NCBI GenBank assembly: GCA_003164305.1
Contig: PLSZ01000171.1
Location: 1-29,312 of the forward strand
From: Acetobacteraceae bacterium
GTDB lineage: Bacteria > Pseudomonadota > Alphaproteobacteria > Acetobacterales > Acetobacteraceae
Direction: 5' to 3'
DNA length: 29,312 bases
The notes under the pieces were generated by a model that worked only from the letters and a program-made list of their open reading frames with translations, was not told the DNA's origin and made no database searches. Numbering within the stretch: the stretch's first letter is position 1; each line of letters opens with the position of its first letter. Positions 3,302 through 20,942 of the stretch are shown here, in pieces. The position numbers were made by a program, and so were the translations under genes.

Positions 3302-3948
3302 GCCAACCGCTTTTCGACGTACTCGGAAAACTTCGCCAGAACCGAAATGATGATCAGGTAAAACACCGCGAGTTCCGCGTACAATTCGAACGGCGTGAAC
3401 TTCGCCGCGATGATGGCCTGCGCCGAGCGGGTCAGTTCCGAGATCGAGATGACCGAAAGCAACGACGAACTCTTGACCAGCGTTATCACCTCGTTGGTCA
3501 GCGGCGGCGTGATGCGGCGCAATGATTGCGGCAGCAGGATGAACAGCACCGACTGACGATTGGTCATGCCGATCGATTTCGCCGCCTCCGTCTGACCGGC
3601 ATCGATGGATTGCAGGCCGGATCGGACGATTTCCGCGATGAAGCCGCCGGAATTGAAGGCCAAAGCGACCACGCCGCTCCAGAAAGCGGACAACTCCAGG
3701 CCAAGTTGTGGCAAGGCGAAATACACCAGAAACACCTGTACCAGGGCCGGCGTACCGCGCACGAAATAGACATACGACCGCACGATCCCGCGAACGAACA
3801 CGTTTTCCGCCAGACTGAGCAAGCCGGCGACCGCGCCCAGTACAGTGCCAAACAGCATGGCGAGCGCCGACAGCTCCAGCGTCACCAGGGCGCCCTGGCA
3901 CAAATACGGCACCGCGTACCAAACGACGCCCCAGTCGAACGGGTTCAC
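3298..3948 (-). CDS. Polar-amino-acid-type ABC importer, permease
   Basis: The 216-residue product is an inner-membrane HisM/GlnP-type permease. It begins with a hydrophobic segment containing GALVTLELSALAM, continues with VRGTPALVQVFLVYFALP, and carries the EAA loop (AAKSIGMTNRQ...LPQSLRRITPP) that docks with the ATPase. About five membrane segments are visible. The start is GTG 3948, 12 bases after the binding-protein stop, with GGAA and a purine run ahead of it. The stop overlaps the ATPase start by four bases, implying coupled translation. Only one permease gene is present in this operon, so the transporter probably uses a homodimer. The substrate cannot be read from the permease. Confidence 0.93.
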   Translation of the reverse strand: MNPFDWGVVWYAVPYLCQGALVTLELSALAMLFGTVLGAVAGLLSLAENVFVRGIVRSYVYFVRGTPALVQVFLVYFALPQLGLELSAFWSGVVALAFNSGGFIAEIVRSGLQSIDAGQTEAAKSIGMTNRQSVLFILLPQSLRRITPPLTNEVITLVKSSSLLSVISISELTRSAQAIIAAKFTPFELYAELAVFYLIIISVLAKFSEYVEKRLA

Positions 3949-3960
3949 CCCGTGGTTCCG

Positions 3961-4782: not shown

Positions 4783-5097
4783 CTGAACTCTCCTTTATCA
4801 CGGCCGCCGGCTTCGCCTCGCACAGCGCACTTTCCCTCGTTCAAAGCATTAGCAATCCGCGGGCCAGGTGGGAGCATGGTGTCCACGCTGGATGCGCTTC
4901 GATCCCCGTCGCTATCGACCTGACCGGGAACCGACATCGTGCATAAAATTCATCCAAAAGTGATTCGCTTTCGGGCAGTTATCCACGCGAGGCGCGACCA
5001 TCCGTTCCCTGTGGCAGGCCTGACCGCCAAAACCCCTGGCATGGCGCTTGCTGATCAATTCTGCCTCGTGGTGACACGAACCAACGGAGAAGTTGAC
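4783..5097. promoter_or_regulatory. Divergent promoter region between ABC importer and amidohydrolase
   Basis: This 315-base gap separates two divergent units. A tentative plus-strand promoter reads CTGACC (4920-4925), 18 bases, then TAAAAT (4944-4949). An imperfect 15-base palindrome, AAAGTGATTCGCTTT (4957-4971, six of seven pairs), sits at the predicted transcription start and could be an operator. An ATG at 4939 is in frame with the amidohydrolase but lies before that start, and its 53-residue extension is not family-like. No regulator gene is adjacent. Confidence 0.35.
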
Positions 5098-6416: not shown

Positions 6417-7862
6417 TTAAAGGACACGATCCGACAGACCGGCGGCGTCGCGAACCGTGCGCAGTGAATGCGCCCAATCGAAATTGCGCCAGACGGCCGC
6501 GAGGTTCGCATAAGGCGGAGATTGCGCGAACAATTGAAACGTCAGGCGATGTCCGGCGTAATCCGAATTCAACAGGTCACGCGCGAAGGCCAGCAGCTTG
6601 CGTCTGTCGTCCGCCTGCCAGGTTTCGCTGATCGTGTAAAATTTCTCCAGCCACGGTGCGGTGTCCGGATCGCGGAAGGACGCCGCGTCCGGCGTCACGC
6701 AAATCTGTCCGCCGCACAGTTCGCGCGCGATATGCATCATATGATGCAGCTGCGACGAAGCGAGCACGCGTCCGGTCATCAGCAACGATTGGTTCGGCAT
6801 CAGCAAGCCACCGGGACTGCGCGTCGCGGTGGCGATCGCCGCGGTCAGATGCGCGTTGATCCCCTCACGGTAGCAGGCCAGAAGCGCGAGTTTCTCCTGC
6901 ACCGCCTGTTGATGCTCCAGCCCGGTCTGCCGTGCGTTGAACAACGCGGCGCCGATCATGAAATCGGCCATGCGGATATTCCGCTGCACGTAAGCGAAGG
7001 CGCTGTAGCGATGCAGCGTGGCGCGAATGAAGGTCGCCGCTTTGGTATGCCGATAGAACAACACGTCATCCCACGGGATCAGCACGTCGTCGAACACCAA
7101 CAGCGTGTCCACCTCATCGAAACGGTTCGACAGCGGGTAATCCTCGGCCGGCGCGCGTCCGGCGAAACCGGTGCGGCAAATGAATTTCAGGTTCGGCGCG
7201 CTGAGATCGCAGATAAAGCCGACCGCGTAATCGGAAAGCTGTGAATCGCCCCAGTTGGCGATCGTCGGTTTGGTAAAAGCCTGATTGGCATAAGCCGCCG
7301 CGGTTTCGTATTTCGCGCCGCGCACGATGATGCCCGCGTCGGTCTCGCGCACCACGTGCAGCAGCATATCGGGATCCTGGTCTTGTGGCCGCTTCGAGCG
7401 GTCGCCCTTGGGATCCGTATTGGCGGAAACGTGAAACGGATCCTGCTTCACCACGCGGTCGACGTGGTTCCGGATGTTGGCCGAGAACCGTGGATTGACC
7501 TCGTTCAGCACGTCCTGGCCGTCATAGAGCGCCCACATCTCGCCCACCGTTTCGTCACCGACACGGGTTACCACGCCGCCGATGTCATCGAGCACGGCAT
7601 CGACGGCGGTGCGCTTGGCTTGCCAATCCTGTTCCGTCAGCGGCAGTTTCGTGCCGATCGCGCAGACGTCGCCGGTTTCGTCGGTCCACGTCATCGTGGC
7701 CGCGGTCCGCGCGTCATGCGCCATGTCGTAAATCCGGGCACGAACATCGACCAGCGGTTTGAACATCGGATGCGTGGTAACGTCCGCGACCCGCTCCCCG
7801 TTGATCCAGACACGGCGGCCGTCGCGAATGGAATCCCGGTATTGCTGGCCGGTTCGAATCAT
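6417..7862 (-). CDS. HpaB-family (4-hydroxyphenylacetate 3-hydroxylase type) flavin monooxygenase
   Basis: The 481-residue protein has the length and architecture of the large oxygenase component of two-component FADH2-dependent phenol hydroxylases (HpaB/PvcC group), which have an acyl-CoA-dehydrogenase-like fold. It starts with the family opening TGQQYRDSIRDGRRVWINGE. It then shows RTGFAGRAPAEDYPLS (about 230-245), FDEVDTLLVFDDVLIPWDDV (about 248-267) and a helical C-terminal domain ending in FAQSPPYANLAAVW. ATG 7862 is preceded by a GGGGAAA site. It is the last gene of the long minus-strand run, 41 bases after the LLM monooxygenase. HpaB enzymes need FADH2 from HpaC, and no HpaC gene is present here. 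An ortho-hydroxylated phenol is the default guess, but relatives act on other phenolic and N-containing rings, so the substrate is left open. Confidence 0.9.
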   Translation of the reverse strand: MIRTGQQYRDSIRDGRRVWINGERVADVTTHPMFKPLVDVRARIYDMAHDARTAATMTWTDETGDVCAIGTKLPLTEQDWQAKRTAVDAVLDDIGGVVTRVGDETVGEMWALYDGQDVLNEVNPRFSANIRNHVDRVVKQDPFHVSANTDPKGDRSKRPQDQDPDMLLHVVRETDAGIIVRGAKYETAAAYANQAFTKPTIANWGDSQLSDYAVGFICDLSAPNLKFICRTGFAGRAPAEDYPLSNRFDEVDTLLVFDDVLIPWDDVLFYRHTKAATFIRATLHRYSAFAYVQRNIRMADFMIGAALFNARQTGLEHQQAVQEKLALLACYREGINAHLTAAIATATRSPGGLLMPNQSLLMTGRVLASSQLHHMMHIARELCGGQICVTPDAASFRDPDTAPWLEKFYTISETWQADDRRKLLAFARDLLNSDYAGHRLTFQLFAQSPPYANLAAVWRNFDWAHSLRTVRDAAGLSDRVL

Positions 7863-7903
7863 GTCCGTTTCCCCGTGTTATATTGTGCTTGCGCGCGAAA
7901 CCC

Positions 7904-9238
7904 TCACGGCTTCGGCAAGCCCAGATGGTCGCGAAGCGTGGTGCCTTCGTAGTCAGCTCGAAACAATCCGCGATCGCGCAATTCCGGGATGACCAAATCG
8001 ACGAAATCATTCAACCCGCCAGGCAGAGTCGCCGGCTGGATCAGAAACCCGTCCACCGCGTAATGATCGAACCAGGTCTGCATATCATCGGCGATCATCG
8101 ACGCCGTGCCGATCACGGTACGCTGGCCGCGCGCGCCGGCGAAGCGCTGGTACAACTGCCGGATCGTCAGTCCCTCATCACGGGCCCACCCGAGAATTTG
8201 CCGAAACGCGGTCTGCCCGGCGTTGGTGCCATGACGCTCGACCTCGTTCGGTAACGGCCCATCGATGTCGTACGGACGCAAATCGAATTTACCGAGGCTG
8301 TAGCCCAGAAGTTCCAGACCGACATCCGGATGGATCAAGGATTGCAAATGCGCGTGCTTGTCCCTGGCCTCGGCCAGGGTGCGTCCAACAATCGGATTAA
8401 GTCCCGGCATCACAACGAGATGACGGCGCTCCCGACCGAATTTGTTCATCCGGCCCTTCAGGTCCGCGTAAAACGTCTGGGCTGGCTCCATGAAGGTCTG
8501 CGGCGTGAACACCGCCTCCGCCGTGCGTGCCGCCAACTCACGACCGGCTTCTGAGGAACCCGCCTGAAATAGCACCGGCTCCCCCTGCGGGGACCGCGCC
8601 ACGTTCAGCGGCCCCTTCACGCGAAAATGCTGACCTTCGTGGTTCAGTTCATGCAATTTCGCCGGATCGTGATAAATCCCGGTGCCGCGGTCGCGCACGA
8701 ACGCGTCCGCGTCCCAACTTTTCCACAAGCCGCGCACGACGTCGGTGAATTCTTCCGCCCGGTCGTAGCGAACGTCGTGCTCGAAATGCGCCTCCCGGCC
8801 GAAGTTGAATGCCTCCGACTGGTTCGATGACGTGACGACATTCCAACCGGCGCGGCCGCCGCTGATCAAATCCAACGAGGCGAACTTGCGCGCCACGTTA
8901 TACGGCTCGTTATAACTGGTGGTGGCGGTGGCCACCAGGCCGAGATGCGTCGTCAGCGGGGCGATCGCCGACAGCAGCGTCAACGGTTCGAAATACGCCA
9001 TGTACTGCGGCCAACGGCGCAACGCGTCCGGCCTTCCGTCGCGCACCGCCAACGCGTCGGCCAGAAACATCAGATCGAATTTGCCGCGCTCGGCGGTTTG
9101 GGCCAGTTCGGCGTAGTGCCGGAAATTCGTGCCGGCATCGATTTGAGCGCTTTCGTCCAGCCAGGACGCGACATGATGTCCCGTGGGATGAAAGAACGCG
9201 CCCAGATGAAGCTGCTCGCCAGGACGCGCCGCGGTCAT
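7904..9238 (-). CDS. LLM-class flavin-dependent monooxygenase, NtaA/SnaA type
   Basis: The 444-residue product is a canonical member of the nitrilotriacetate monooxygenase component A family: LHLGAFFHPTGHHVASW near the N-terminus, RGKFDLMFLADALAV, SLDLISGGRAGWNVVTSSN, NFGREAHFEHDVRYDRAEEF, and PVLFQAGSSEAGRELAA. It should oxidise a small substrate with FMNH2 and oxygen; relatives cut C-N or C-S bonds or open amide rings. The start ATG 9238 overlaps the stop of the dioxygenase gene as ATGA; a longer frame to 9304 reads only shadow sequence of that gene. It differs from the other two LLM proteins of the window, which form a closer pair with each other, so it probably acts on a different compound or at a different step. 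Confidence 0.94.
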   Translation of the reverse strand: MTAARPGEQLHLGAFFHPTGHHVASWLDESAQIDAGTNFRHYAELAQTAERGKFDLMFLADALAVRDGRPDALRRWPQYMAYFEPLTLLSAIAPLTTHLGLVATATTSYNEPYNVARKFASLDLISGGRAGWNVVTSSNQSEAFNFGREAHFEHDVRYDRAEEFTDVVRGLWKSWDADAFVRDRGTGIYHDPAKLHELNHEGQHFRVKGPLNVARSPQGEPVLFQAGSSEAGRELAARTAEAVFTPQTFMEPAQTFYADLKGRMNKFGRERRHLVVMPGLNPIVGRTLAEARDKHAHLQSLIHPDVGLELLGYSLGKFDLRPYDIDGPLPNEVERHGTNAGQTAFRQILGWARDEGLTIRQLYQRFAGARGQRTVIGTASMIADDMQTWFDHYAVDGFLIQPATLPGGLNDFVDLVIPELRDRGLFRADYEGTTLRDHLGLPKP

Positions 9239-10290
9239 GCGGTGATCGCGTGCTTGCCGGCCAGAGCGCCGCCGCGCAGCGCACCCGCCCGCGTGTCGCC
9301 CCACTGCACCGCGTGCCCCTCGGGCAGCAACCGGCTGAACGGGGTCGACAGCCAGATGCGCAACAAAACGCGTGACGCGTCGCCTTCATTTTTGAACGCG
9401 GTGCGCCCGTGATAGGTTACATGCTGGGTCATGAATTGCAGGTCGCCCGGTTCGAAGGGCGCGAACAGGCAGAGTTCCTCGCCGATTTCGTGCAGCAGAT
9501 CCATCGCCGCGTTCTGCGCCTCAGTTAAAGGCGGAACTCCATCGATCTCCTGCGCCTGATTGATATAGGTGCGGGAATACTGGCTGGTGAATCCGCCATC
9601 GGCGGCGCGCGCGAACACCGGCATCGGGAACACGCGGTCGGGACGATCTCCCTCCTCGTCTTCGGGTCGCATGCGCCAGAACGGCTCGTAAAACACCCGC
9701 AACAAATCCGGCCGGCGACGCGCCATCTCGTTATGGATGGCGACGCTGGACACGATCTTCGACACACCGCCTTCGATGCCGTTGCTGACGCAAAGCAGCG
9801 AAAGCAAATCGCATTTATCGGTATGAAAACGCAGCGCGCCCGTGGATCGCGCGACGGTTCGCGCCGAAATCAGCTTGCCCACGCCACTGTTGTAATCCAA
9901 CGCCGCGCCAGTGCCGGTTTCGTCTTTCACCTCCGCCAACACCTCGCCGGCCGAGGTCTGATAGACCGGCGTGCCGAGGTTGACGCAAAATCCCCAGAAC
10001 AGCCTCCGCAGCATGTCCCGCGGCATCCGATCGACCGGCACCCCTTTGATCCGCACCACTCCTGGGCCGTATTCCAGTTGCCGCGCGGTCCAGGCCAACA
10101 AGGGCGCCAGTTCCGGAATCTCGAAGGCCCATTTGCCAAATCCTGGACAAGGCGCATGGTTCGCCAAATCCGCCGCGCGAATCAGCGCCGCGATCTCAGC
10201 CTCCGTCAGGCGCCGTCCCCATGCCTCCGACGCCTCCAGTTCCGCGCCGCGCCATGCCTGGTTCGTTTTGATCGGAGCAAGCTCATCCAT
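9235..10290 (-). CDS. TauD/TfdA-family Fe(II)/2-oxoglutarate-dependent dioxygenase
   Basis: This 351-residue protein carries the iron-binding facial triad of the TauD/TfdA family: H156 and D158 in RFHTDKCD, and H294 in TYHGRTAF. R311 (in VLLRIWLS) is placed to bind the 2-oxoglutarate carboxylate. The segment GVVRIKGVPVDRM near 77-89 and QTSAGEVLAEVKD are typical of the GBBH-like or clavaminate-synthase-like side of the family. Members hydroxylate a C-H next to a heteroatom and so release sulphite, amines or alcohols, or carry out simple hydroxylation. ATG 10290 abuts the ATPase stop directly (TGAATG), and its own stop overlaps the next LLM gene, so translation is probably coupled on both sides. 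A transporter subunit and an oxygenase joined so closely suggests that this enzyme works on the imported compound. Confidence 0.93.
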   Translation of the reverse strand: MDELAPIKTNQAWRGAELEASEAWGRRLTEAEIAALIRAADLANHAPCPGFGKWAFEIPELAPLLAWTARQLEYGPGVVRIKGVPVDRMPRDMLRRLFWGFCVNLGTPVYQTSAGEVLAEVKDETGTGAALDYNSGVGKLISARTVARSTGALRFHTDKCDLLSLLCVSNGIEGGVSKIVSSVAIHNEMARRRPDLLRVFYEPFWRMRPEDEEGDRPDRVFPMPVFARAADGGFTSQYSRTYINQAQEIDGVPPLTEAQNAAMDLLHEIGEELCLFAPFEPGDLQFMTQHVTYHGRTAFKNEGDASRVLLRIWLSTPFSRLLPEGHAVQWGDTRAGALRGGALAGKHAITA

Positions 10291-11028
10291 TCAGGCCTCC
10301 ATTCGGCTGAGGAAACGATCCACCCGGTCCGGCACGGCGGAGGAGAAGAAATCCCTGGATGACGCGCGGTGCGCCACCTTGCCATGATCCAAAAATACAA
10401 CCTCGTTCGCCGCGCGACGGGCGAACCCGAGTTCATGCGTCACGACGATGCTGGTCAAGCCCGCCTCGGCCAGTTCGCGCATCACGATCAACACCTCGCC
10501 GACAGTTTCCGGGTCCAAAGCGCTGGTCGGTTCGTCGAACAGCATCAGCGCGGGATCCATCGCCAGAGCGCGCGCGATCGCCACGCGCTGCTGTTGACCG
10601 CCCGAAAGTTCATCCGGATACGCGTCCGCCTTGTCAGGCAGATGCACGCGCCCCAGCAGATCGAGGGCCAGCGCGCGGGCCTCCGTCCTGGGCCGGCCCA
10701 ATACCTTGGTCGGAGCGAGCATGATGTTGTCCAGCGCGGTCAGATGCGCGAATAACTCGAAGTTCTGAAACACCATGCCGATGCGCTGACGCACGGCGGA
10801 CGCATGGCCGCGGGTCAGACCTGAGATCTCCTGACCTTTGAATAAAATACTGCCGGATGCGATCGGCTCCAGCAGGTTAAGGCAGCGCAACAACGTCGAC
10901 TTGCCGGAACCCGACGGTCCCAGCACCACGAGGCAATCGCCCTCCCGCACCGATAGATCGACGCCGCGCAGAACATCGGTGTCACCGAAACGTTTCCAGA
11001 TCGCCGCGGCGTTCAGGAGATCCGTCAT
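10291..11028 (-). CDS. PAAT-type ABC importer, ATP-binding protein (second system)
   Basis: This 245-residue GlnQ/HisP-type ATPase has Walker [10 protein letters not shown] (37-45), Q-loop GMVFQNFELF, signature [15 protein letters not shown], Walker [15 protein letters not shown] and the H-loop VVTHEL. Its start ATG 11028 overlaps the permease stop as ATGA and its stop touches the dioxygenase start. It belongs with the permease 11025-11726 and binding protein 11734-12528. Length and motif order are normal for the family. Confidence 0.95.
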   Translation of the reverse strand: MTDLLNAAAIWKRFGDTDVLRGVDLSVREGDCLVVLGPSGSGKSTLLRCLNLLEPIASGSILFKGQEISGLTRGHASAVRQRIGMVFQNFELFAHLTALDNIMLAPTKVLGRPRTEARALALDLLGRVHLPDKADAYPDELSGGQQQRVAIARALAMDPALMLFDEPTSALDPETVGEVLIVMRELAEAGLTSIVVTHELGFARRAANEVVFLDHGKVAHRASSRDFFSSAVPDRVDRFLSRMEA

Positions 11029-11726
11029 CGTGCCGCCTGCGCGACGGGCACGGCGACGATGCGCCGGCGGCGAGAAAAGCCGCGTTCGATGCGCATCTGT
11101 ATTTGCATGAAGATCGTGGTCAGCACGAGATAGTAGACACCCGCCGCGAACAGCGTTTCAAAATAGCGGAACGTGCCGGAAGCGTCTTGTTCCGCTACCA
11201 TCAGCAATTCCTTCACACCGATCACCGAGACGATCGCGGTGACTTTCAGCATGCTGATGAACTGGTTGCCAATCGGCGGGATGACGATCCGCATAGCCTG
11301 CGGCAACACGACCCAGACCATGATTCGCCACTCGTCCATGCCCAGTGCGCGGGCGGCCAATCGCTGGCCGCGGCCAACGCCAAGTATGCCGGCGCGCATG
11401 ATCTCGGCCATATAGGCGCCCTCGTTCAGGCCGAGGGCGAGCACGGCGCAGGTGAATCCGGACATCACCAATCCGAACGCCGGCAAAACATTGAAGGCGA
11501 AGACGAGTTGCAAAAGCACCGGGGTGCCGCGGAACAACCAAAGATACCCGGTCACCGCGTGATGCACCGCGCGATACGGCGTTTCCCGTCCGACCGCAAG
11601 CAGCAGTCCGATGACGACGCCAACCGCGAGGGACGCGAGGCTAAGACCAAGCGTGATCAGCGCGGCATGGGCGAATTCCGCGCTGACGAGGTAACGCAGG
11701 AACAGCGCGGGGGAGAACAGCGACAC
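11025..11726 (-). CDS. PAAT-type ABC importer, permease (second system)
   Basis: The 233-residue inner-membrane permease has HisM/GlnP features: ITLGLSLASLAVGVVIGLLLA as the first strong membrane helix, LWLFRGTPVLLQLVFAFNVLP, LNEGAYMAEIMRAGI, and the EAA loop AARALGMDEWR...LPQAMRIVIPP. I chose GTG 11726, seven bases after the binding-protein stop, with GAGG five bases upstream. The frame is open to 11909, but those residues are the binding-protein gene read out of frame. The C-terminus is basic (RRRRIVAVPVAQAAR), which fits a cytoplasmic end. It is translationally coupled to the ATPase. Confidence 0.91.
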   Translation of the reverse strand: MSLFSPALFLRYLVSAEFAHAALITLGLSLASLAVGVVIGLLLAVGRETPYRAVHHAVTGYLWLFRGTPVLLQLVFAFNVLPAFGLVMSGFTCAVLALGLNEGAYMAEIMRAGILGVGRGQRLAARALGMDEWRIMVWVVLPQAMRIVIPPIGNQFISMLKVTAIVSVIGVKELLMVAEQDASGTFRYFETLFAAGVYYLVLTTIFMQIQMRIERGFSRRRRIVAVPVAQAAR

Positions 11727-11733
11727 AAGCGCC

Positions 11734-12528
11734 TCAATACGCCGCGCTGCTGGGTGGCATCTTCCATGTCGCCAGCAGCTTCGCGTAATCGCCATCCGCG
11801 ACGACCGCCGCCATGGCTTTTTGCAACGCGGCGAACAGCAGCGGATTGTCCTTACTGACCGCGATGCCGACTTTGGTTTCGTTATCGAAGGGATCGCCGG
11901 CGGCGGCATAGGTGTCCGGCGTCGCCTGCATCAGCGCCACGGCGGTGGGAGTCGAAACGATGATCGCGTCGGCCCGATCCTGCGTCAGCGCCAGTGCACA
12001 CGCGGTCGTGCCGGCCAGCGACAACATTTCGATCTTCGGCTTGCCGGCGGCTTCGCAGGCGGCACTGGTTTTGTTGGCGGAGGCCTCGAACACGGTGCCC
12101 ACGGGAGCGGAAACACGATGACCGCACAGCGACATCTTATCACTCAGCCCGGACGGATTGCCCTTGCGCACCACGACCTGATTGCCAACCAGCAGATAGG
12201 GCACGAAATCCGCGACCTCTTTCCGCGCATCGTTGATGTACATGCCACTGATGATGGCATCGATGCGCTTGCCAGTCAGGGCAGGAATGATGCCCTTGAA
12301 GTCGATGGGTAACGTGGTGAAGCTGAGTTTCAATTGCTTCGTCAGCAACTCCGCCAGATCGACGTCGAAGCCGATCGTCTTGCCGTCGATGACGTATTCG
12401 AAGGGAGGAAATGTCGGGGACATGCCGATCGTCAGGGTGTTTTCGCTGACCAATGGCAACGGTTGCGCAACGGATGGCGAGGTGGCGAACGCGAGGACGA
12501 GAAGGCCGAGAACAAGACGAGGCAGCAT
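11734..12528 (-). CDS. Periplasmic substrate-binding protein of PAAT-type importer (second system)
   Basis: The 264-residue protein has a signal peptide ending SVAQ (cut after about residue 21), then TLTIGMSPTFPPFEYVIDG, GFDVDLAELL and GIIPALTGKRIDAIISGM. R102 (YINDAR) should bind the ligand carboxylate. The position of the usual amino-group-binding aspartate holds S192 (DRADAIIVS). Two cysteines, C135 and C158, could form a disulphide across a loop. ATG 12528 has GGAG eight bases upstream. It follows RidA by 27 bases and leads the second complete importer of the operon. Its ligand is probably not a standard amino acid. Confidence 0.92.
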   Translation of the reverse strand: MLPRLVLGLLVLAFATSPSVAQPLPLVSENTLTIGMSPTFPPFEYVIDGKTIGFDVDLAELLTKQLKLSFTTLPIDFKGIIPALTGKRIDAIISGMYINDARKEVADFVPYLLVGNQVVVRKGNPSGLSDKMSLCGHRVSAPVGTVFEASANKTSAACEAAGKPKIEMLSLAGTTACALALTQDRADAIIVSTPTAVALMQATPDTYAAAGDPFDNETKVGIAVSKDNPLLFAALQKAMAAVVADGDYAKLLATWKMPPSSAAY

Positions 12529-12555
12529 GGAAGAACTCCGGTTCTGAGGGGGTAC

Positions 12556-12951
12556 TCAACTCGCTCGCCGCGCGATCATATCGATTTCGATCAGGCCGCC
12601 GCGCGCCAGAGTGGTGACGCCGACGGTGGTCCGCGCGGGCAGCCGGCCCGTCGCGAAGTAGGTGCGATAGATCTCATTGAACGGGCCGTAGTCGCGCTCA
12701 AACACAGTCAAAAACGCGCGCACCATGACGACCTGTTCCAGTCCCGAACCAAGTCCGTTCAACACGCGCTTCAGGTTGTCCATCACCTTGTGCGTCTGCG
12801 CCGCGATCCCCTCGGGTATCGGGCGTGAGTCATCGTCCGGATCGGTGGCAAGCTGGCCGGTGATGAACAGCCAGCCGTCTTGCTCGACCGCGTGGCTGTA
12901 GGGCGCGACCGGCGCCGGGGCACCGCTGATCATGTGAAACAGGGGATCCAT
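12556..12951 (-). CDS. RidA/YjgF/YER057c/UK114-family protein (enamine/imine deaminase type)
   Basis: The 131-residue protein has the RidA fold signature: APVAPYSHAV at the N-terminus, LFITGQLATDP, and the active-site arginine R107 in GRLPARTTVGV, followed by LIEIDMIA. RidA proteins hydrolyse reactive enamines and imines made by amine-removing enzymes; RutC in pyrimidine degradation is a relative. R107 suggests real deaminase capacity rather than a purely structural relative. Two bases separate it from the fused transporter gene upstream, and 27 from the binding protein downstream. ATG 12951 is preferred; a second ATG six codons later (MISGAP) is also possible. Its presence within a transport/oxygenase operon suggests that the pathway makes an imine or enamine intermediate. 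Confidence 0.93.
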   Translation of the reverse strand: MDPLFHMISGAPAPVAPYSHAVEQDGWLFITGQLATDPDDDSRPIPEGIAAQTHKVMDNLKRVLNGLGSGLEQVVMVRAFLTVFERDYGPFNEIYRTYFATGRLPARTTVGVTTLARGGLIEIDMIARRAS

Positions 12952-12953
12952 CG

Positions 12954-14531
12954 TCAGACGACCTCTTCCTCGACTTTGTTGACCATGCGCAGAAAACGGC
13001 GCGTCCGGTCCTGGGTTGGCCGGTCCAGCACCGCGCCCGGGGGTCCCTGCTCGACGATCGCGCCATCGTCCATGAACAGGATTCGATCGGCGACCTCGCG
13101 GGCGAAACGAACCTCATGCGTGACGATGATCATGGTCATGCCGGCTTCGGCGAGGCCGCGGATCACGGTCAGAACTTCGCCCACCAGCTCCGGATCCAGC
13201 GCCGACGTGGGTTCATCGAACAGCATCACACTGGGCGCCACCGCCAGGGCACGCGCGATCGCGACACGCTGCTGCTGGCCACCGGACAGGCGATGCGGCA
13301 AATGATTCGCGTGCCGGGCCAGGCCCACGGCATTGAGCAGACGCGCGGCGACCGCGCGCGCCTCCTCCGGTCGCTGGCGATAAACCGTGACGGGCGCTTC
13401 GACGATATTTTCCAGCGCGGTGAGGTGCTCGAACAAATTGAAGTGCTGGAACACCATGCCGACGCGCGCGGCGGCGCGTGACTGCGCCAGCCGCTTGCGC
13501 ACGGGCCGAACACCGCCGCCAGGCAAGGGTTCATAGCCGACAAGCTTGCCGTTGACGGTGATTTCCCCCCAGTCCATCGGCTCCAGATGATTGATCATGC
13601 GCAACAGCGTGCTTTTGCCGGAACCACTGGGACCCATGATCACCACGACCTCGCCGGCGTTCACCGTCAGGTCGATGCCCTTCAGAATCTCCCGGCCGCC
13701 GTAGGTCTTCTGGACATTGTGACAAACCACGCACGGTCCCTCGGCGCCGGCGATATCGCGGCAGAGTTCGCCGATCAACGCGGGAAGGCGTTCACGCCCG
13801 GTCTGGATCGGCGTGTTGTCCGCCGCCGTCTTCGGACTTAAGCGCAGGAAGGCGCGGAGGCGTCGCGTGAACCCATCGTTCTCCTCACGCAAGAAGTCGA
13901 AATGCCGCTCCAGCGCGATCTGGCCCACCGCGACGGCGGAGGTCATGATCAGGTAGATGAGACCGGCGGCGGTGAAGACCTGAAAAAACAGAAAATTCTG
14001 ACCGACGATCTGTTCCGCGCTGAAGGTCAGTTCATTTACGAAAATCACCGACGCGATCGAGGTCCCTTTGATCATGCTGATCGTTTGATTGGCGACGCCG
14101 GGCAGGATCGATCGCATCGCCTGCGGCAGAATGATCCGCCGCAACGTCAGCAAAGGCGGCATGCCGAGCGCCGCGGCGGCGATGCTCTGGTTGCGGTTGA
14201 CCGCCAAAATGCCGCCGCGAATGATTTCGGCGCTGAACGCCGCTTCGTTGAGGGAAAACCCGGCGACGGCCGTCGCAAAGGTGCTGAGCGTCAGGCCAAC
14301 CGACGGCAGAACGTCAAAAATGAACACCAGTTGCAGCAGCAACGGCGTGCCGCGGACGAACCAAATATAGAACCATGCCGCGCCGCGCACCGCGGCATGA
14401 CGGGACAGCCGCGCCAGCGCCAGAACCAGTCCAAGAAACAGGCCAAGGACCATGGCCAACGCGGCTATTTTCAACGCGAGCAGGGCGCCGCGCAACAGGA
14501 ACGGCGAGACGATGTAAGTGAGGAAAGTCAT
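12954..14531 (-). CDS. Fused ABC importer: permease and ATPase in one chain (third PAAT system)
   Basis: The 525-residue protein joins two subunits that are separate in the other two systems. Residues 1-215 are a HisM/GlnP-type permease ([23 protein letters not shown] loop [15 protein letters not shown]...LPQAMR, about 118-140). Residues 216-265 are a charged linker. Residues 266-525 are a GlnQ-type ATPase with Walker [10 protein letters not shown] (300-308), Q362, LSGGQ (415-419) and Walker [15 protein letters not shown] (435-448). The reading frame runs through without interruption, so this is a true fusion and not a sequencing error; fused members of this family are known. It probably works as a homodimer with the binding protein 14980-15849, from which it is separated by the truncated haemoglobin. 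ATG 14531 has only a weak site (TGAGAG). Confidence 0.93.
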
Positions 14532-14555
14532 GCTCTCAGCAACGCGGCACCACCC

Positions 14556-14966
14556 TCAGAACGGTTTCGATTTGTAATCGTAAGCGGGATTTGGCCTGAA
14601 TTCAGTGATCACACTGGCGCGCGCCGCCTTCAACGCCGTTCGGATTTCCGCCTGATCCGCCATGGACGCGCCGGATTCCGCCGCGGCGGCCACGAACATA
14701 TCGACGAACTGGTCGAATGCGTGTTCGGTGACCAACTGGCCTTTATGTGCCGCCTGCAACGAGGTACCGCGATCCGGCATCCGCGCATCGCCGAACGCCG
14801 TTCGCAGGAAGCCCAACTGACCGGTTTTCATGCGATCGATATCGACCCCCATGAAATATTCGCCGAGGTAATCGTCCGCCAGAAGCCGTTCGTAATGCAG
14901 ATCGATCAGACGCGTCAGTCCGGCTTCGCCACCCAGACGAGAAAAGAGCGTTGACCCTGTGTCCAT
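14556..14966 (-). CDS. Group I truncated haemoglobin (GlbN-like)
   Basis: The 136-residue globin has the 2-on-2 fold markers: LFSRLGGEAGLTRLIDLHYERLL with Y25 at position B10, a GVDIDRMKTGQLGFLRTAFGD stretch with Q50 near E7, and H74 in LQAAHKGQ as the proximal haem ligand. Tyr B10 plus Gln near E7 gives a polar pocket, suited to oxygen binding or nitric oxide dioxygenation. The C-terminal 40 residues (after about 95) are rather polar, ending in NPAYDYKSKPF, and are less typical. ATG 14966 follows AAGGAA. It sits between a binding protein (13 bases) and the fused transporter (24 bases), an unusual place for a globin. It may supply oxygen or protect the many oxygenases nearby; that role is inference only. 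Confidence 0.9.
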   Translation of the reverse strand: MDTGSTLFSRLGGEAGLTRLIDLHYERLLADDYLGEYFMGVDIDRMKTGQLGFLRTAFGDARMPDRGTSLQAAHKGQLVTEHAFDQFVDMFVAAAAESGASMADQAEIRTALKAARASVITEFRPNPAYDYKSKPF

Positions 14967-14979
14967 GTCTCGACGTTCC

Positions 14980-15849
14980 TTATTGCGTCAGAATGTCCGG
15001 CGGCAAAGCCCAGGATGGGTCGAGTTTGTATTGTTGAAAGATGTGTGCCAGTTCGCCGTTGGCTTCGGTCGCCGCGATCCCGTCGGCCAGGGCTCGCGCG
15101 AGTTCCGCGTTGCCTTTCGCCACGGCGACGCCGACTTTAATGCCCGGAAGGAAACTAAATCCCGCTTCCAGTAGCGGCTTCTGTTCGGCGATCGTTTGAG
15201 CGATCATGGCGTTGCTCAGCATGACATCGACCCGTTCTGTCTCGATCATCTGCCAGGCCTGGGAGCGGTCCTGAAACGTGTTCAGTTCGATCGCCTGCTT
15301 GCCGTCGGCGACACACTTATCGCTGATTTTCTGCAGCATGACGATTTCGACCGTGCCAAGCCCGGCGAGCGCCTTCGTGCCGCACAGTTCGTCGAGCGAA
15401 TGGAGGTTTTTCGGGTTGCCCTTATGCGTGATGGCACGATCCGCCATGGTGGAATACAGCACGAAATCCACCATTTTCGCGCGCTCCGGTGTATAGTAAA
15501 GTACATCCCACATGACATCGATTCGACCGCCCGCGACGGCGGGCAGCAAGCCGGACCAGACGCCGGTCACGAACTCCACCGGCAATCCGATGCATTTGAA
15601 CACAGCGCGTGCCAGGTCCGCGTCGGAACCGATGATCTGCTCGGGATTTTTCGGATCGCGGAAATTGAACGGTAACGAGACACCGTCCTCGCCGATCCTG
15701 ATCGTCTTGCCGGCCAGACCAGGGTAGCGAGTCGCCACCTTATCGGGTTCGCACGGTTTGACAGCGTCCGCGCGCGCGGGGGCCGAGGCACCGATCGTCA
15801 CCATCCCGAACAGCAACGCCGCAAGCCAGGTCATCAAACTTTCACGCAT
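14980..15849 (-). CDS. Periplasmic substrate-binding protein of PAAT-type importer (third system)
   Basis: The 289-residue protein begins at ATG 15849 behind GGAGAG. It has a signal peptide of about 27 residues ending in PARA. The mature part reads as a type II binding protein: TIRIGEDGVSLPFNF, GSDADLARAVF, GLLPAVAGGRIDVMWDVLYYTPERAKMVDF. R123 is the predicted carboxylate-binding arginine. The usual amino-group aspartate position is N213 (ERVDVMLSN). The W114-D115 pair in place of the usual small residues after the VDVM strand is unusual and suggests an altered pocket. Four cysteines (33, 86, 156, 179) may form disulphides. An upstream in-frame ATG at 15957 would add 36 residues without sense. 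Its partner is probably the fused permease-ATPase. Confidence 0.9.
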   Translation of the reverse strand: MRESLMTWLAALLFGMVTIGASAPARADAVKPCEPDKVATRYPGLAGKTIRIGEDGVSLPFNFRDPKNPEQIIGSDADLARAVFKCIGLPVEFVTGVWSGLLPAVAGGRIDVMWDVLYYTPERAKMVDFVLYSTMADRAITHKGNPKNLHSLDELCGTKALAGLGTVEIVMLQKISDKCVADGKQAIELNTFQDRSQAWQMIETERVDVMLSNAMIAQTIAEQKPLLEAGFSFLPGIKVGVAVAKGNAELARALADGIAATEANGELAHIFQQYKLDPSWALPPDILTQ

Positions 15850-15920
15850 GCGATCGCTCTCCGTTTCGCTGCTCTGACAATAGGAAAATGCAACTCGTGT
15901 GCCAGCAGCCCGGCGGATGC

Positions 15921-16946
15921 TTAGTCGCAACGGAACATCCCGCGCCGGATGCGGCAATGGACACCTTGACTGCCATCCACGACCTGCGTGACCGCGAAAT
16001 CCGCCGCGACGCTCATCAGCGAGTAAGCATCGTCGCGGCTCAACCGTTGACGGTCCGTCAACAGAGTCAGCATGTCCAGGCTCGCGTCGCGCATCGCGAC
16101 GTTCAGGTCTTCGTTGAACCCGTGCACGATCCAGTGCAGCGGCGTCTCCAACAAGGGAGACGGGAACTGGAAGTCCTTGCGCACGCGCACTTCGAACAGG
16201 ACATCGAGCGAGGCCTCGATCGCGGTGCCGCTGATCTCACCGTCGCCCTGCGACACATGCGGATCGCCGACCGAAAACAGCGCGCCGGGGACCTGCACCG
16301 GATAATACATCGTCGCACCGGCGCCGATGCGCCAGTTGTCGATGTTGCCACCATGTTTGCCGGGCGGAATGCTGCTGACACGTCCCTTCGCGTCGGGCGC
16401 CACGCCGGCGGTGCCCAGATGCGGCCGGGTCGGAATGCGAATGCCGGCCAGCGCGGGTTGGCAGTCGCAGGTCGCACAATCGGTGATGCGGCCGGGGACG
16501 AGGTATTTCTCCTTCACATCGTAAGCGAACATCGCCGTCGCCTGATTCGCTTCCCGATGCAGCCGATAAATGGTGACGCGTTCCCGCTCCTCCATCTCGC
16601 GGTACAGATGGCCCCAATGCGCCGCGAGATTGGACCCGTAATCCAGCCGCGGTGTCATCTCGTGATAGCGCACCTCCAGCATATCGCCGGGCATCGCGCC
16701 TTCGACATAGACGGGACCGGTCATGATGTGCACGCCAGGCGCGCGGTCATGTTCGGGAATCGCCGCGTAAAGTTCACGGATGGATGCGTCCATCATCAGA
16801 TCGGGTGCGTCGCCGGCGTGATGCGTAACGGCCTCGGCACGGATCAGGTCTCCGCTGTTCACTCGCAATGCCGGCGCGAGCGAGGCGTCGAAGTAACCCC
16901 AGTGCACGTTTTCCGCGCGCGCCGGAAGATGATGCAACGCGGTCAT
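15921..16946 (-). CDS. Acetamidase/formamidase family protein (FmdA/AmdA)
   Basis: The 341-residue protein matches the acetamidase/formamidase family, metal-dependent hydrolases that cleave short amides to acid and ammonia. Family blocks are in order: ENVHWGYFDASLAPAL (12-27), MTGPVYVEGAMPGD (75-88), IPPGKHGGNIDN (193-204) and GDPHVSQGDGEISGTAIE (227-244). A small cysteine cluster, DCATCDC (156-162), precedes the third block and could bind a metal. ATG 16946 overlaps the Rieske oxygenase stop by four bases; the frame continues to 17015, but only as shadow of that gene. It is second in the long operon, directly coupled to a Rieske oxygenase, so it may hydrolyse an amide set free by ring or side-chain oxidation. 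Its true substrate may be larger than formamide. Confidence 0.9.
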   Translation of the reverse strand: MTALHHLPARAENVHWGYFDASLAPALRVNSGDLIRAEAVTHHAGDAPDLMMDASIRELYAAIPEHDRAPGVHIMTGPVYVEGAMPGDMLEVRYHEMTPRLDYGSNLAAHWGHLYREMEERERVTIYRLHREANQATAMFAYDVKEKYLVPGRITDCATCDCQPALAGIRIPTRPHLGTAGVAPDAKGRVSSIPPGKHGGNIDNWRIGAGATMYYPVQVPGALFSVGDPHVSQGDGEISGTAIEASLDVLFEVRVRKDFQFPSPLLETPLHWIVHGFNEDLNVAMRDASLDMLTLLTDRQRLSRDDAYSLMSVAADFAVTQVVDGSQGVHCRIRRGMFRCD

Positions 16947-18142
16947 TCGGCGGCGGCGCGCAGATGGTCCTCGTCTTCGCGCCGCCATGTCGAGCGATAC
17001 CGTTCGACCAGCCACTTATTGAATTCGCGGTGGGTTTCTTCCTGCCAGGAGTAACGCCCCCGAATGGCATAGCGTGACCGCAATCCTTTTTGCACCAGCG
17101 TATCAACATGCCGATCCTGGGCGCCGATCTTAATCGACGCCTGCACATTGATTTGCCGCCGTTCCTCGAACAGCGGCTCATCCATCGCGCCCGGTGCGTA
17201 GAGCACGCCGGATTCCGCGGTCGTTACCTCGGCGGAGTCGGCGTGCAGGATGAAATAGCTGATCTGGTCGGACCGAAATCCCATCGTCAGCGTTGGCGGA
17301 ACATTGGCGAAGATCACTTCATTGCGCTGCTTGTCCGTCAGTCCCGGAAACAATTTCAGGATGCAGCGTTGCAGCGGATTGACCGCGCCGTCCATGTGCG
17401 TCGTGCCGTTGTAACGGAAATAGCCGGCGGTATCGGCCGGCAGTTCCGGGAAGCGGGCCAGCGCGCTGGGGATGACGTCATGCATGCCGCGATGCAGGCG
17501 ATTGGCGTGATAGCCGTCGTTGTTGTTTTCGAACATGACCTTCCAGTTCCAGGGATAGGTCGTGGAGCCGTCGGGCCGCGGTCCGTCCGCCAGCTCCGCC
17601 TTGTAATTCTCGATCGCCAGCCGCAACGTTTCCAATCGGGGCGCCAACGGCCTGGCGTTCTGGTCGAAATTGATAAAGACAAAGCCCAGCCAGATTTCGA
17701 GTTTAAATGCCGGGAGGCGCACCTGCTTCTTATCGAAGCCGCAGGCGCGCTCCATCGCCGGCGCGCCGATCAATTGGCCATCCAACGAGTAGACCCAATG
17801 GTGGTAGGGACAGAGGAAGGTCTTGGTGCGGCCGTGGCCCTCGGCGACGAGCATGGCGCGGTGCTGGCAGACGGTGGAGAAGGCTTTCAGCACACCGTCC
17901 CGGTTGCGTACGACGACGATGGGTTCGCCGATATGGCTGGTGGTGAAGAACTCGCCGGGCTCGCGCGCCCAGGATTCACGGCCGACGCAGAGCCATTCGT
18001 GATTGAAGATGGCTTCTTTCTCGAACTCGTGGAATTCGGCGTCGGTGTAGCAGGCAGGCGGCAGCATTTCCGCCTGATCGACGGCGGCGATCGAGGAGTC
18101 GAGGCTGGCGAAAAACTGGTCGTTCAGCGTGCCTGATTTCAC
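16943..18142 (-). CDS. Rieske non-haem iron oxygenase, catalytic alpha subunit
   Basis: The 399-residue protein has the Rieske [2Fe-2S] motif C92-x-H94 with C111-x-x-H114 (VCQHRAMLV...FLCPYHHW) and a catalytic mononuclear iron site in ENNNDGYHANRLH: D209 is the bridging aspartate, H212 and H217 the ligands. Such proteins hydroxylate rings or remove N- or O-methyl groups using electrons from a separate reductase. It is closer in style to the ring-hydroxylating and quaternary-amine (GbcA/CntA-like) alpha subunits than to the VanA-like protein at 18307. No beta subunit or reductase is next to it. The start is GTG 18142 after GGGAGA, five bases away. It opens the long operon. Confidence 0.93.
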   Translation of the reverse strand: MKSGTLNDQFFASLDSSIAAVDQAEMLPPACYTDAEFHEFEKEAIFNHEWLCVGRESWAREPGEFFTTSHIGEPIVVVRNRDGVLKAFSTVCQHRAMLVAEGHGRTKTFLCPYHHWVYSLDGQLIGAPAMERACGFDKKQVRLPAFKLEIWLGFVFINFDQNARPLAPRLETLRLAIENYKAELADGPRPDGSTTYPWNWKVMFENNNDGYHANRLHRGMHDVIPSALARFPELPADTAGYFRYNGTTHMDGAVNPLQRCILKLFPGLTDKQRNEVIFANVPPTLTMGFRSDQISYFILHADSAEVTTAESGVLYAPGAMDEPLFEERRQINVQASIKIGAQDRHVDTLVQKGLRSRYAIRGRYSWQEETHREFNKWLVERYRSTWRREDEDHLRAAAE

Positions 18143-18306: not shown

Positions 18307-19479
18307 TCACTCGCCGGCGGCCATGTCCTCGGCCAAGGAAATCCCCCCCGCGGACGGCCGTCGCGCATGGGCACCCGCGAACCGGCGCCAGGCGATGACG
18401 CCCACATCGGTCTTCGAGAGTCGTTCTGACCCCGGCACGAGCGCCTCGACCATCACCTTGTCCTGGTCGGAGAAAATCCGATCGTGCGTCCAGCCGCGCC
18501 AGAGATAGTAATGCACCCGATCGACGATCTCCCGCCAGCGACCGAGACGGCGCCAGTTGTTGATGTTGAAACAGCGTGTCGTTCCGGCATCGATAGGGAC
18601 GGCCCATTGCACGAGGCAATATTCGCCGCTGAGGCGGCCAACGACGACGAGGCCCGGCAACCGCACCTCCGATTGGTTACGAATACCGTAGACCAGATGC
18701 GCTTTCGAATTCGCGAAACCTTGCACGTTGCCGCGGCCGGTCGGCTTCATCACGCGCCACCACTCGTTGTTGGGGAACGAGCCAAGGCCGGGGTAGTCCG
18801 CTTTGGTCATGCCACCGGTGCGCTTGATGGCGATGCCTTTGTCGCCCTCCAGCGGCTTTGGATCGAGCGTGAGCGCGAAGGGCAGCACCGGCTGAAACAT
18901 CAATTCGGGTGAGCCGCGATGCACGAATTGCGCGTGGTGATCCTGTGGCCAGTTGTCGACCAAAGCACGCCAGTTGCATTTATAATCGGTGTACATCGAG
19001 ATCGAAAAGAATTTGTCCTGCTGGCCGATGAACTCCGGCAGGTCCTCCTCCAGGGCAGACGGTTCCATCGCGCCTGGCCAGATCCAGATCAGGCCGGCGA
19101 ATTCGCGCACCGGCCAGGTGCGCACGCTGACTTTGCGGGTCAACGGCGAATCCGGACCTTCCATCAGCGCGGCGAGCAACTGCCCCGTGGCGCCATCGAA
19201 CGTCCAGCCGTGATAGGGACAACTGATCGAGCCGCTGCCCGCGTATTCGCATTTTCCCGCCGACAGTTTCACGCCGCGGTGCGGACAGCGATCGTCCAGC
19301 GCGAACAGTTTGCCGCCGTCCCGAAACAGCACGATGTCGCGGCCGAGCAGCCGGACAGCTTTCGGTTTGCGCTTCAGGTTGCCGGCCGTGACGATCGGGT
19401 ACCAATAATTCTCAAAGCCCAGTTTGGGAATGCCGAAGCGGCGGTATGGCATTTCGCCGGGATCGTCGTCTTCATCCAT
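18307..19479 (-). CDS. Rieske oxygenase, VanA/phthalate-dioxygenase type, with altered bridging residue
   Basis: The 390-residue protein begins WYPIVTAGNLKRKPKAVRLL, as in VanA and phthalate dioxygenase oxygenases, and carries the Rieske motif C65-x-H67 and C87-x-x-H90 (RCPHRGVKL; ISCPYHGW). The catalytic iron segment reads DNWPQDHHAQFVH, giving H182 and H187 as ligands. The usual D-x-x-H spacing would put the bridging aspartate at residue 179, but this is glutamine; the aspartate is at 180 instead. VanA-like enzymes are homotrimers that demethylate or hydroxylate aromatics with a separate ferredoxin reductase, which is not encoded here. ATG 19479 follows AAGGAC. It lies 12 bases after the LLM gene 19492-20787, so the two form one unit. 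The function is uncertain because of the residue change. Confidence 0.92.
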   Translation of the reverse strand: MDEDDDPGEMPYRRFGIPKLGFENYWYPIVTAGNLKRKPKAVRLLGRDIVLFRDGGKLFALDDRCPHRGVKLSAGKCEYAGSGSISCPYHGWTFDGATGQLLAALMEGPDSPLTRKVSVRTWPVREFAGLIWIWPGAMEPSALEEDLPEFIGQQDKFFSISMYTDYKCNWRALVDNWPQDHHAQFVHRGSPELMFQPVLPFALTLDPKPLEGDKGIAIKRTGGMTKADYPGLGSFPNNEWWRVMKPTGRGNVQGFANSKAHLVYGIRNQSEVRLPGLVVVGRLSGEYCLVQWAVPIDAGTTRCFNINNWRRLGRWREIVDRVHYYLWRGWTHDRIFSDQDKVMVEALVPGSERLSKTDVGVIAWRRFAGAHARRPSAGGISLAEDMAAGE

Positions 19480-19491
19480 GGCCGTCGTCCT

Positions 19492-20787
19492 TCAGAACGC
19501 ACGCAGATTGTCGCGGAACAGGTCGTGGCTGTACGCCGCTCGGGTCAGCCCGCGCCGTTGCAGCGTGGGAACCAGACCATCGGTGATCTCGATGATCGCC
19601 TTGCGGGTCAGCGGGTCCTGGATCAGCAACCCATCGCCGCCGATTTCCTCCATCACCGAGGCCATCTCGCTGGCGATGCTGTCGGCCGTGCCGATGAAAT
19701 CGATGCCGCCGCTACCGGGATCCAGCAGCATCTGACGCAATGTGCGTGTCCCATCGCCGGATAAATGCGCCTCGAACGACGCCCGCGAGGCGTTGATTGT
19801 AAGCTTCGGCAGCGGCGCGTCGAGGTCGAACTTCGCGCAATCGATGCCACTCAGATACGACATCGCGGCGAGTTTCGCGTCCATCTTATCCGCCAGGCCG
19901 GCGGCCATGCGTGAATGTTTTTCGCGCGCCTCGTCGATCGTGTCGCCAAGGATGACGGACGCGCAGTGCATGACCTTGCAGTCGCGGGGATCGCGCCCGA
20001 TTGGTGTCATCAGCGCGGAAATGTCGGCACGATATTGCTTTGCCGCCGCGATCCGCCGGTTCTTCGCGATGATCAGGTCAGCGTGTTTGGCGGCGAAGGC
20101 ACGGCCGGCGGGGGAACCGCCGGCCTGGCAGATCACCGGTCGCCGCTGCGGTCCCGGCGCGGTGTTCAACGGCCCGCGGGATTTATAAAACCGGCCTTCG
20201 TAATGAATCGGATGGATTTTCGTGTGATCGGCGAACACACCGGTTTCTGGATTGGCGACAATCGCCCCGGGTTCCCACGATTGCCAGAGCCGGTCGCAGA
20301 TTTCCATCCACTCGTCGGCCATTTCATAGCGCAGGTCATGTTCGTAATGCCGATCGAGGCCGAAATTCTGCGCCGAGCGGTCATTGTGAGCGGTGACGAC
20401 GTTGAGGCCGACGCGCCCCTGGGTCAGATGGTCCAGGGTCGCGCCCAGGCGAGCCGCCAGATAAGGCGGATAGAAACTGGTGGTGATGGTCGCGACAATG
20501 CCAATCCGTTTGGTTACGTAACCAAGCAGCGGCACCAGCGGCATAGGGTCGCTTTTGGGTACCGAAAACGCATTGCGCAAGGACCATTCCGGTGAATCCT
20601 GAAACGCGTCGGCGATGAACGATCCATCTTCCAGAATCAGACAATCGAAACAGGCCCGTTCCAGTCCGCGCGCGAGGTCCATGTACAGGTCAGGCTTCAT
20701 CCAATCGGCGCCGATGGTCCCGCCCCAGGCCTGATGCCAGTTGTGCGGCGAGTAACCCTTTCCGATGAACCATCCGAGATGAAACAT
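19492..20787 (-). CDS. LLM-class flavin-dependent monooxygenase (paralogue of the gene at 1210)
   Basis: The 431-residue protein begins FHLGWFIGKGYSPHNW and continues with RACFDCLILEDGSF, ATLDHLTQGRVGLNVVTAHN, SAQNFGLDRHYEHDLRYEMADEW and the block SRGPLNTAPGPQRRPVICQAGG. It shares with the gene at 1210 the motifs WEP(D/G)A, ADHTK, RGPLNT and a C-terminus of the LRDxLRxF type, so the two are likely paralogues. ATG 20787 has GGAGG seven bases upstream; the frame is open to 20901 but crosses the inverted repeat and has no family content. It is first in a two-gene unit with the VanA-type oxygenase, divergent from the amidase operon. It needs reduced flavin from elsewhere. Confidence 0.93.
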   Translation of the reverse strand: MFHLGWFIGKGYSPHNWHQAWGGTIGADWMKPDLYMDLARGLERACFDCLILEDGSFIADAFQDSPEWSLRNAFSVPKSDPMPLVPLLGYVTKRIGIVATITTSFYPPYLAARLGATLDHLTQGRVGLNVVTAHNDRSAQNFGLDRHYEHDLRYEMADEWMEICDRLWQSWEPGAIVANPETGVFADHTKIHPIHYEGRFYKSRGPLNTAPGPQRRPVICQAGGSPAGRAFAAKHADLIIAKNRRIAAAKQYRADISALMTPIGRDPRDCKVMHCASVILGDTIDEAREKHSRMAAGLADKMDAKLAAMSYLSGIDCAKFDLDAPLPKLTINASRASFEAHLSGDGTRTLRQMLLDPGSGGIDFIGTADSIASEMASVMEEIGGDGLLIQDPLTRKAIIEITDGLVPTLQRRGLTRAAYSHDLFRDNLRAF

Positions 20788-20829
20788 GCCGCCTCCGGTT
20801 GAAGATGATTCCGGACGTCCCGGCCCTCG

Positions 20830-20884
20830 TGACGCAATTGGCGTGCCAGACAGGCCGGCCTCTTCTGGCACACCGATTGCGTCA
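20830..20884. promoter_or_regulatory. Large inverted repeat between divergent monooxygenase and amidase genes
   Basis: Two 21-base arms, 20830-20850 and 20864-20884, are inverted copies with 19 of 21 positions matching; the outer nine bases (TGACGCAAT / ATTGCGTCA) and inner eight (GTGCCAGA / TCTGGCAC) match fully. The 13-base spacer contains its own perfect palindrome, AGGCCGGCCT (20852-20861). The repeat fills the centre of the 155-base gap between two divergent starts (20787 and 20943). It could be an operator for a dimeric or tetrameric repressor controlling both directions, or an RNA hairpin in the amidase leader. Confidence 0.75.
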
Positions 20885-20942
20885 GGTTGACCCTGGGCCA
20901 CACCTGATGGGGACCCAGGCCAGCCACCAAAGGATCGCCACC

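Follow-up and report, generated by a model that had tools for sequence, protein, structure and literature searches.

Several described systems share parts with the locus considered here, a run of twelve genes at positions 6417..18142 of a 29,312-nucleotide stretch of contig PLSZ01000171.1 from an Acetobacteraceae bacterium (assembly GCA_003164305.1), which is called the window in its whole length. The Rut operon for pyrimidine degradation combines a luciferase-like monooxygenase (LLM), a Rid protein and amide hydrolysis. The Ehu system is a PAAT-type ABC importer for ectoine, a cyclic N-carboxylate, and the LLM YtnJ of Bacillus subtilis, found with a cystine-type importer, has a role in the use of S-alkylcysteines. 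Two further gene sets are seen in genomes: operons in Acetobacteraceae and Thiomonas that hold a periplasmic binding protein (SBP), a permease/ATPase, RidA and FmdA of a PAAT-type uptake system, and a set of HpaB, a Rid protein denoted RidA', DUF1028 and an M20 deacylase on plasmids of Paracoccus, Aminobacter, Rhizobium and Bacillus.

The twelve genes of the window are all open, lie on the minus strand and are spaced by -4 to 71 bases, and Pfam backs the class of every one (Table 1), which bears out the description given in the first-pass annotation. In the order of transcription the gaps are -4 (Rieske to FmdA), 71 (FmdA to SBP2), 13 (SBP2 to globin), 24 (globin to permease/ATPase), 2 (permease/ATPase to RidA), 27 (RidA to SBP1), 7 (SBP1 to PERM1), -4 (PERM1 to ATP1), 0 (ATP1 to TauD), -4 (TauD to LLM2) and 41 (LLM2 to HpaB). 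Start sites inside the longest open reading frame (ORF), chosen from gene overlaps and homology, are likely for FmdA (16946), LLM2 (9238), SBP2 (15849) and PERM1 (a GTG at 11726). The parts are of known kinds. No named system with this gene combination, or with some of its pairings, was found in the literature searched, which covered one library, and none of the other genome loci that were read, where sub-modules occurred, held the full twelve-gene set and order.

We give an even chance to the reading that two uptake-plus-catabolism modules have been joined to make up the run in one Acetobacteraceae-like genome, because module A stands without module B in another genome and subsets of module B recur without module A. 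The three genes of importer 1 (SBP1, PERM1 and ATP1), the TtnM/FrbJ-type dioxygenase and the NtaA/YtnJ-type LLM2 were found as five contiguous genes in one of 299 Acetobacteraceae-family genomes (G624), with identities of 73% for PERM1, 73% for ATP1 and 83% for LLM2, and module B was not present in the 40 kb read around them. Homologs of the TauD-fold enzyme numbered 35 at E <= 1e-60 in 385 genomes of the class, and none of 20 wide loci in that set had other module genes nearby at the thresholds of the module survey. FmdA, Rsk1, PA2, SBP2 and RidA each matched none of the 47 TauD-anchored stretches, with the thresholds used in the FmdA-locus survey described below; a TauD-anchored set of 27 includes two second stretches, L161 and L163, and the latter gave two LLM2-like matches at 49%.

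Module B is seen most clearly from FmdA, whose family is encoded in 291 stretches of the genome collection. The best 80 of the 291, at 70-76% identity, were surveyed in loci of 4-21 kb, so that the partner counts are lower bounds: a homolog of Rsk1 was present in at least 53 of the 80 (in 36 of them no more than 2.5 kb away on the same strand, and in 11 no more than 500 bases away), homologs of SBP2 and PA2 in at least 13, and RidA in at least 9. Homologs of PA2 occur at E <= 1e-110 in 17 of the 299 Acetobacteraceae genomes, and in the 14 PA2 loci read FmdA was found in nine (six at >=60% and three at 41-42% identity), with SBP, PA, RidA and FmdA consecutive in four; two loci are common to the FmdA and PA2 sets, L198 being identical DNA to L074 and L205 to L052. 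The RidA of the window groups with that of FmdA loci (59-69% identity to L002 and L050), apart from the RidA' of HpaB loci (25-29%). As compared to the FmdA-RidA importer operons, the genes of the window stand in a different order, with a globin and a Rieske enzyme in addition, and SBP2 carries Asn at its aspartate site. The closest solved structure to Rsk1 is the carnitine monooxygenase CntA (133 bits), the glycine betaine monooxygenase GbcA equivalog was matched with 110 bits against a cut-off of 670, and FmdA scored 64 bits against the formamidase equivalog NF045496 (cut-off 500) and 110 bits against the Pfam family, to which it belongs.

Contig sizes tie the globin to SBP2. Identical contig sizes between homolog lists were used as a proxy, the longest contig per cluster standing in for co-location, with 83 of 85 globin rows, 117 of the best 120 of 457 SBP2 rows and the best 120 of 606 TauD rows. 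Globin homologs and the listed SBP2 homologs had 17 same-size contigs, as compared to a mean of 1.2 and a maximum of 6 in 2000 jittered sets, and 11 as compared to 0.11 expected for contigs of >=3 kb. The genes of the globin and SBP2 are probably neighbours in many genomes, because these numbers far exceed expectation. The listed SBP2 and TauD homologs had one same-size contig where 1.2 were expected, which is not above chance. The 85 globin homologs, 84 of them at >=53% identity, come mainly from metagenome sources and include one Acetobacteraceae metagenome-assembled genome (MAG). No match to the globin was obtained in the 299 Acetobacteraceae-family genomes at E <= 1e-15, in a search run without a known positive, and the eight plasmid records with globin matches were all below 60% identity and 80% coverage. 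The protein has the globin domain and the proximal histidine of group-1 truncated hemoglobins; His74, which we take to be the proximal ligand, is kept in 27 of 28 aligned sequences, and in the C-terminal part R116, A117, V119, E122, F123, P125, P127 and Y131 are kept in 28 of 28. This invariance suggests that the C-terminal part may have a binding partner. It is conceivable, and in our view rather unlikely, that a dedicated class of group-1 globins has co-evolved with the carboxylate ABC importer and the amidase/Rieske operon, in which the tail would dock to an operon partner, the globin would deliver O2 to the oxygenase or remove NO, and N-blocked carboxylates would be dismantled by a route without a described counterpart.

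HpaB, the last gene of the run, goes with module A, because HpaB, RidA' and DUF1028 adjoin PAAT importers in two other genomes, at L243 with an HpaB homolog of 79% identity and L222 with a C-terminal remnant of HpaB. The linkage of importers to oxygenases noticed in the first-pass annotation is thus seen beyond the window, in G624, the PA2 loci, L222 and L243. M20 deacylases lie close to relatives of importer 1 in six of ten stretches. Homologs of HpaB at 77-79% identity are found on plasmids of Paracoccus, Aminobacter, Caballeronia and Rhizobium, and the plasmid-borne HpaB-RidA'-DUF1028-M20 set has HpaB of the same subfamily (56-79% identity), whereas the RidA of the window is of the FmdA-associated type. 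The window protein scored 223 bits against the 4-hydroxyphenylacetate 3-monooxygenase equivalog TIGR02309 (cut-off 480). In the pairwise alignment with HpaB of T. thermophilus, whose Arg100, Tyr104 and His142 we take to be the phenol-site residues, the Arg is kept, Tyr104 is replaced by Glu and His142 by Ser. The window HpaB is probably not a phenol hydroxylase, because two of these three residues are gone.

The set of HpaB, RidA' and DUF1028 recurs in L084-L089, L091 and L243, often with an M20 deacylase and sometimes with HutD, a flavin reductase or aspartate ammonia-lyase, and the literature search found no name for it. The neighbouring HutD and aspartate ammonia-lyase genes pointed to the Hin (imidazole-4-acetate) pathway, which is a candidate only for this set. 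Of the hin genes, the available part of PMC8231116 describes hinG as a peptidic-bond hydrolase and lists hinF, hinL and hinH as coding for hypothetical proteins. DUF1028 was matched in 3 of 14 control genomes, a set not shown to include a Pseudomonas. In L221 (14202-15449) one protein carries three tandem Rid (Ribonuc_L-PSP) domains and adjoins DUF1028 and an SBP1-type importer. Pyrrole-2-carboxylate monooxygenase was considered as a relative of HpaB and appears as a mention and a reference in the available part of PMC6165268.

The binding proteins narrow the likely cargo. Three proteins in the PDB hold both an Arg, which we take to be the ligand of the alpha-carboxylate in PAAT amino-acid binding proteins, and an Asp, presumably the ligand of the alpha-ammonium group. 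By comparison with these, the Arg is present in SBP0 (of a third importer in the window), SBP1 and SBP2, and the Asp is replaced by Ser in SBP0 and SBP1 and by Asn in SBP2. Every one of the 12 proteins in the SBP1 clade carries Ser at the aspartate site. In a 34-member alignment of SBP2 the Arg (Arg123) is kept in all 34, and the aspartate site is Ser in 15, Asn in 12, Asp in 6 and Ala in one. Because the Arg is kept and the Asp is lost, these residues suggest that the cargo may be a carboxylate without a free alpha-ammonium group, such as an N-acyl, N-carbamoyl or heterocyclic acid, and the deacylases that adjoin importer 1 elsewhere fit an N-blocked cargo. The nitrogen-containing organic acid proposed in the first-pass annotation is in this way supported as a class, with no compound named.

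LLM2 scored 570 bits against TIGR03860 (cut-off 280), which places it among the flavin mononucleotide-dependent monooxygenases of the NtaA/DmoA family, and its closest solved structure is YtnJ (370 bits). Both systems have such an LLM adjoining a cystine-like PAAT importer, whereas the window has dioxygenase and HpaB partners and has lost the Asp site. With cystine-type models ranking high for parts of the importer, it could be argued that importer 1 takes up S-substituted cysteine-like compounds or sulfonates, from which the LLM and the TauD-type enzyme free sulfur in the manner of YtnJ or Ssu/Tau. We consider this organosulfur scavenging improbable: the dioxygenase resembles TtnM/FrbJ and had no taurine dioxygenase model among those listed, and the proteins of the SBP1 clade are without the Asp that binds ammonium and have deacylases, RidA' and DUF1028 as neighbours in other genomes. 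As for the Ehu importer, PERM1 is matched best by EhuD; however, the score is 149 bits against a cut-off of 205, ATP1 reaches 254 bits for EhuA against 345, and the catabolic genes are others.

In the two-module reading, each module would take up, through a separate ABC importer of the PAAT type, a carboxylate with an acylated, carbamoylated or ring-bound alpha-nitrogen in place of a free ammonium group. Module A would use its 2-oxoglutarate dioxygenase, its LLM monooxygenase and HpaB to hydroxylate what importer 1 brings in or to open it oxidatively. The Rieske enzyme of module B would oxygenate the cargo of importer 2, FmdA would then cut an amide or formamide bond, RidA would hydrolyse an imine or enamine to release the nitrogen and an organic acid, and the globin may handle O2 or NO for a step of this module.

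A number of observations weigh against this reading. The five-gene module A was found in a single further genome, and M20, DUF1028 and RidA' were all not found in the window. Relatives of LLM2 lie near FmdA in 2 of the 80 FmdA loci (L004, which also has Rsk1, and L055, which also has an amidohydrolase), a different HpaB-family gene stands between PA2 and FmdA in L198, relatives of both modules occur in genome G480, and globin and listed TauD homologs share one long contig size, 104,282 bases (0.09 expected at >=3 kb). For the cargo, five other aligned binding proteins have Asp in three, Ser in the SBP1 ortholog and Val in one, an Asp lies one position earlier in 5 of 12 SBP1-clade proteins, and the SBP2 relatives adjoining FmdA mostly keep the Asp. 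The findings in L004, L055, L198 and G480 and the shared contig size, with the tight spacing and the four-base overlaps of the run, speak for a single undescribed pathway, the reading of the first-pass annotation, with two transporters that complement each other in importing one nitrogen-containing organic acid and all twelve products at work on it. We regard this as unlikely, though still to be reckoned with; the occurrence of module A alone in G624, the recurrence of module B without A and the chance-level agreement of SBP2 and TauD contig sizes all argue against it. The comparison of gene neighbourhoods suggested beforehand found the sub-modules to be co-conserved; the twelve genes together were not seen in the genome loci read.

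The run is embedded in a larger catabolic stretch of about 1018-27339. The part up to 27339 also holds a CoxLMS-type molybdenum hydroxylase, an AtzE-like amidase and a DUF1989 protein; the amidase and the DUF1989 protein, on the opposite strand (20799-23155, +), point to ureide or guanidine-type nitrogen chemistry adjoining the run. CoxL is 74% identical to that of the Acetobacteraceae MAG L050, and the closest genome relative found for the TauD-type protein is at 79% (299 genomes, the Acetobacteraceae family of that MAG), with metagenome-derived proteins up to 99%, which suggests an Acetobacteraceae-like host. No flavin reductase or Rieske reductase domain was found among the Pfam-scanned window proteins, including the tested ORFs of >=100 amino acids at both ends, the flavin reductase of an HpaB cluster gave no tblastn match in the window, and the sole Fer2 domain seen there is part of CoxS. 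Because no reductase domain was found among the scanned proteins, electrons for the reductase-dependent oxygenases are probably supplied from reductases encoded elsewhere. The same lack, a full order that no other genome searched was seen to have, and the presence within 27 kb of three LLMs, two Rieske enzymes and three PAAT importers would also agree with unrelated degradation genes having come together by chance in a catabolic island, the single importer or enzyme being the largest functional unit. Such an assembly appears improbable to us, as the genes overlap and the same partners recur in other genomes.

Table 1. Genes of the twelve-gene run and neighbouring features in the window
Feature	Module	Position	Strand	Support or remark
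Rsk1, Rieske non-heme iron oxygenase alpha subunit	B	16943..18142	-	Pfam Rieske 67.8, Ring_hydroxyl_A 95.6 bits
FmdA, acetamidase/formamidase-family hydrolase	B	15921..16946	-	Pfam FmdA_AmdA 110 bits
SBP2, periplasmic binding protein of importer 2	B	14980..15849	-	Pfam SBP_bac_3
Globin, group-1 truncated-hemoglobin-like	B	14556..14966	-	Pfam Bac_globin 37 bits
PA2, fused permease-ATPase of importer 2	B	12954..14531	-	Pfam BPD_transp_1 fused to ABC_tran
RidA-family imine/enamine hydrolase	B	12556..12951	-	Pfam Ribonuc_L-PSP
SBP1, periplasmic binding protein of importer 1	A	11734..12528	-	Pfam SBP_bac_3
PERM1, permease of importer 1	A	11025..11726	-	Pfam BPD_transp_1
ATP1, ATPase of importer 1	A	10291..11028	-	Pfam ABC_tran
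TauD-fold Fe(II)/2-oxoglutarate dioxygenase, TtnM/FrbJ-like	A	9235..10290	-	Pfam TauD
LLM2, NtaA/DmoA-family flavin monooxygenase	A	7904..9238	-	NCBIfam TIGR03860, Pfam Bac_luciferase
HpaB-family flavin monooxygenase	attached to A	6417..7862	-	Pfam HpaB_N + HpaB
Second Rieske (18307-19479) and further LLM (19492-20901)		18307..20901	-	same-strand pair upstream, 164-base gap
LLM of NtaA family		1018-2508		window flank
Third PAAT importer (binding protein SBP0)		2510-4782		window flank
Amidohydrolase		4939-6411		window flank

The likeness to the Rut operon pointed out in the first-pass annotation is indirect. FmdA-Rieske relatives elsewhere carry an LLM whose best model is RutA (252 bits, cut-off 498), and the isochorismatases of the same loci best match RutB/BiuH at about 99 bits, under the curated cut-offs. 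The window LLM2, however, reaches 54 bits for the RutA model (cut-off 498) and RidA 62 bits for RutC (cut-off 169), no RutB-type isochorismatase domain was found among the window proteins scanned, which were not every ORF, and the window adds Rieske, TauD-type and HpaB enzymes and ABC importers. More broadly, the FmdA neighbours elsewhere resemble ureide and pyrimidine enzymes, all under curated cut-offs: RutA-like LLM, RutB/BiuH-like isochorismatases, a BiuH-HpxZ (AtzH-like) fusion, a PuuE-like protein and a TRZ/ATZ hydrolase. The Variovorax iad auxin pathway was set aside, as it differs in a two-subunit Rieske enzyme and a kynurenine-formamidase-like hydrolase in the available part of PMC12633357.

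A widespread cluster built on FmdA and the Rieske enzyme was seen in many of the loci L010-L080 (Caulobacterales, Sphingomonadales, Hyphomonas, Nitrospirillum and others), with a RutA-like LLM, a RutB-like isochorismatase, a TauD-family enzyme, a short-chain dehydrogenase/reductase, a PfkB-like kinase and a TonB receptor as partners, several of these family names being assigned by reading sequences. On a plasmid of Paraburkholderia aromaticivorans (L082:15173-17551) an AraC-type regulator is fused to an FmdA domain and adjoins a stand-alone FmdA gene; genes of about 800 amino acids with FmdA similarity are also present in L002, L034 and L069, the domains being checked for L082 only. In L203 (13774-14859) a BiuH-like isochorismatase domain is fused to an AtzH/HpxZ-like domain, close to an SBP-PA-RidA-FmdA operon.

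Annotations of oxygenases, amidases, Rid proteins and globins frequently name no substrate. Here importer 1 is paired with HpaB, LLM or TauD-type oxygenases and importer 2 with RidA, FmdA and the globin, which turns them into testable units of uptake and degradation, and the residues of the binding proteins would make carboxylates that lack a free alpha-ammonium group their likely cargo.

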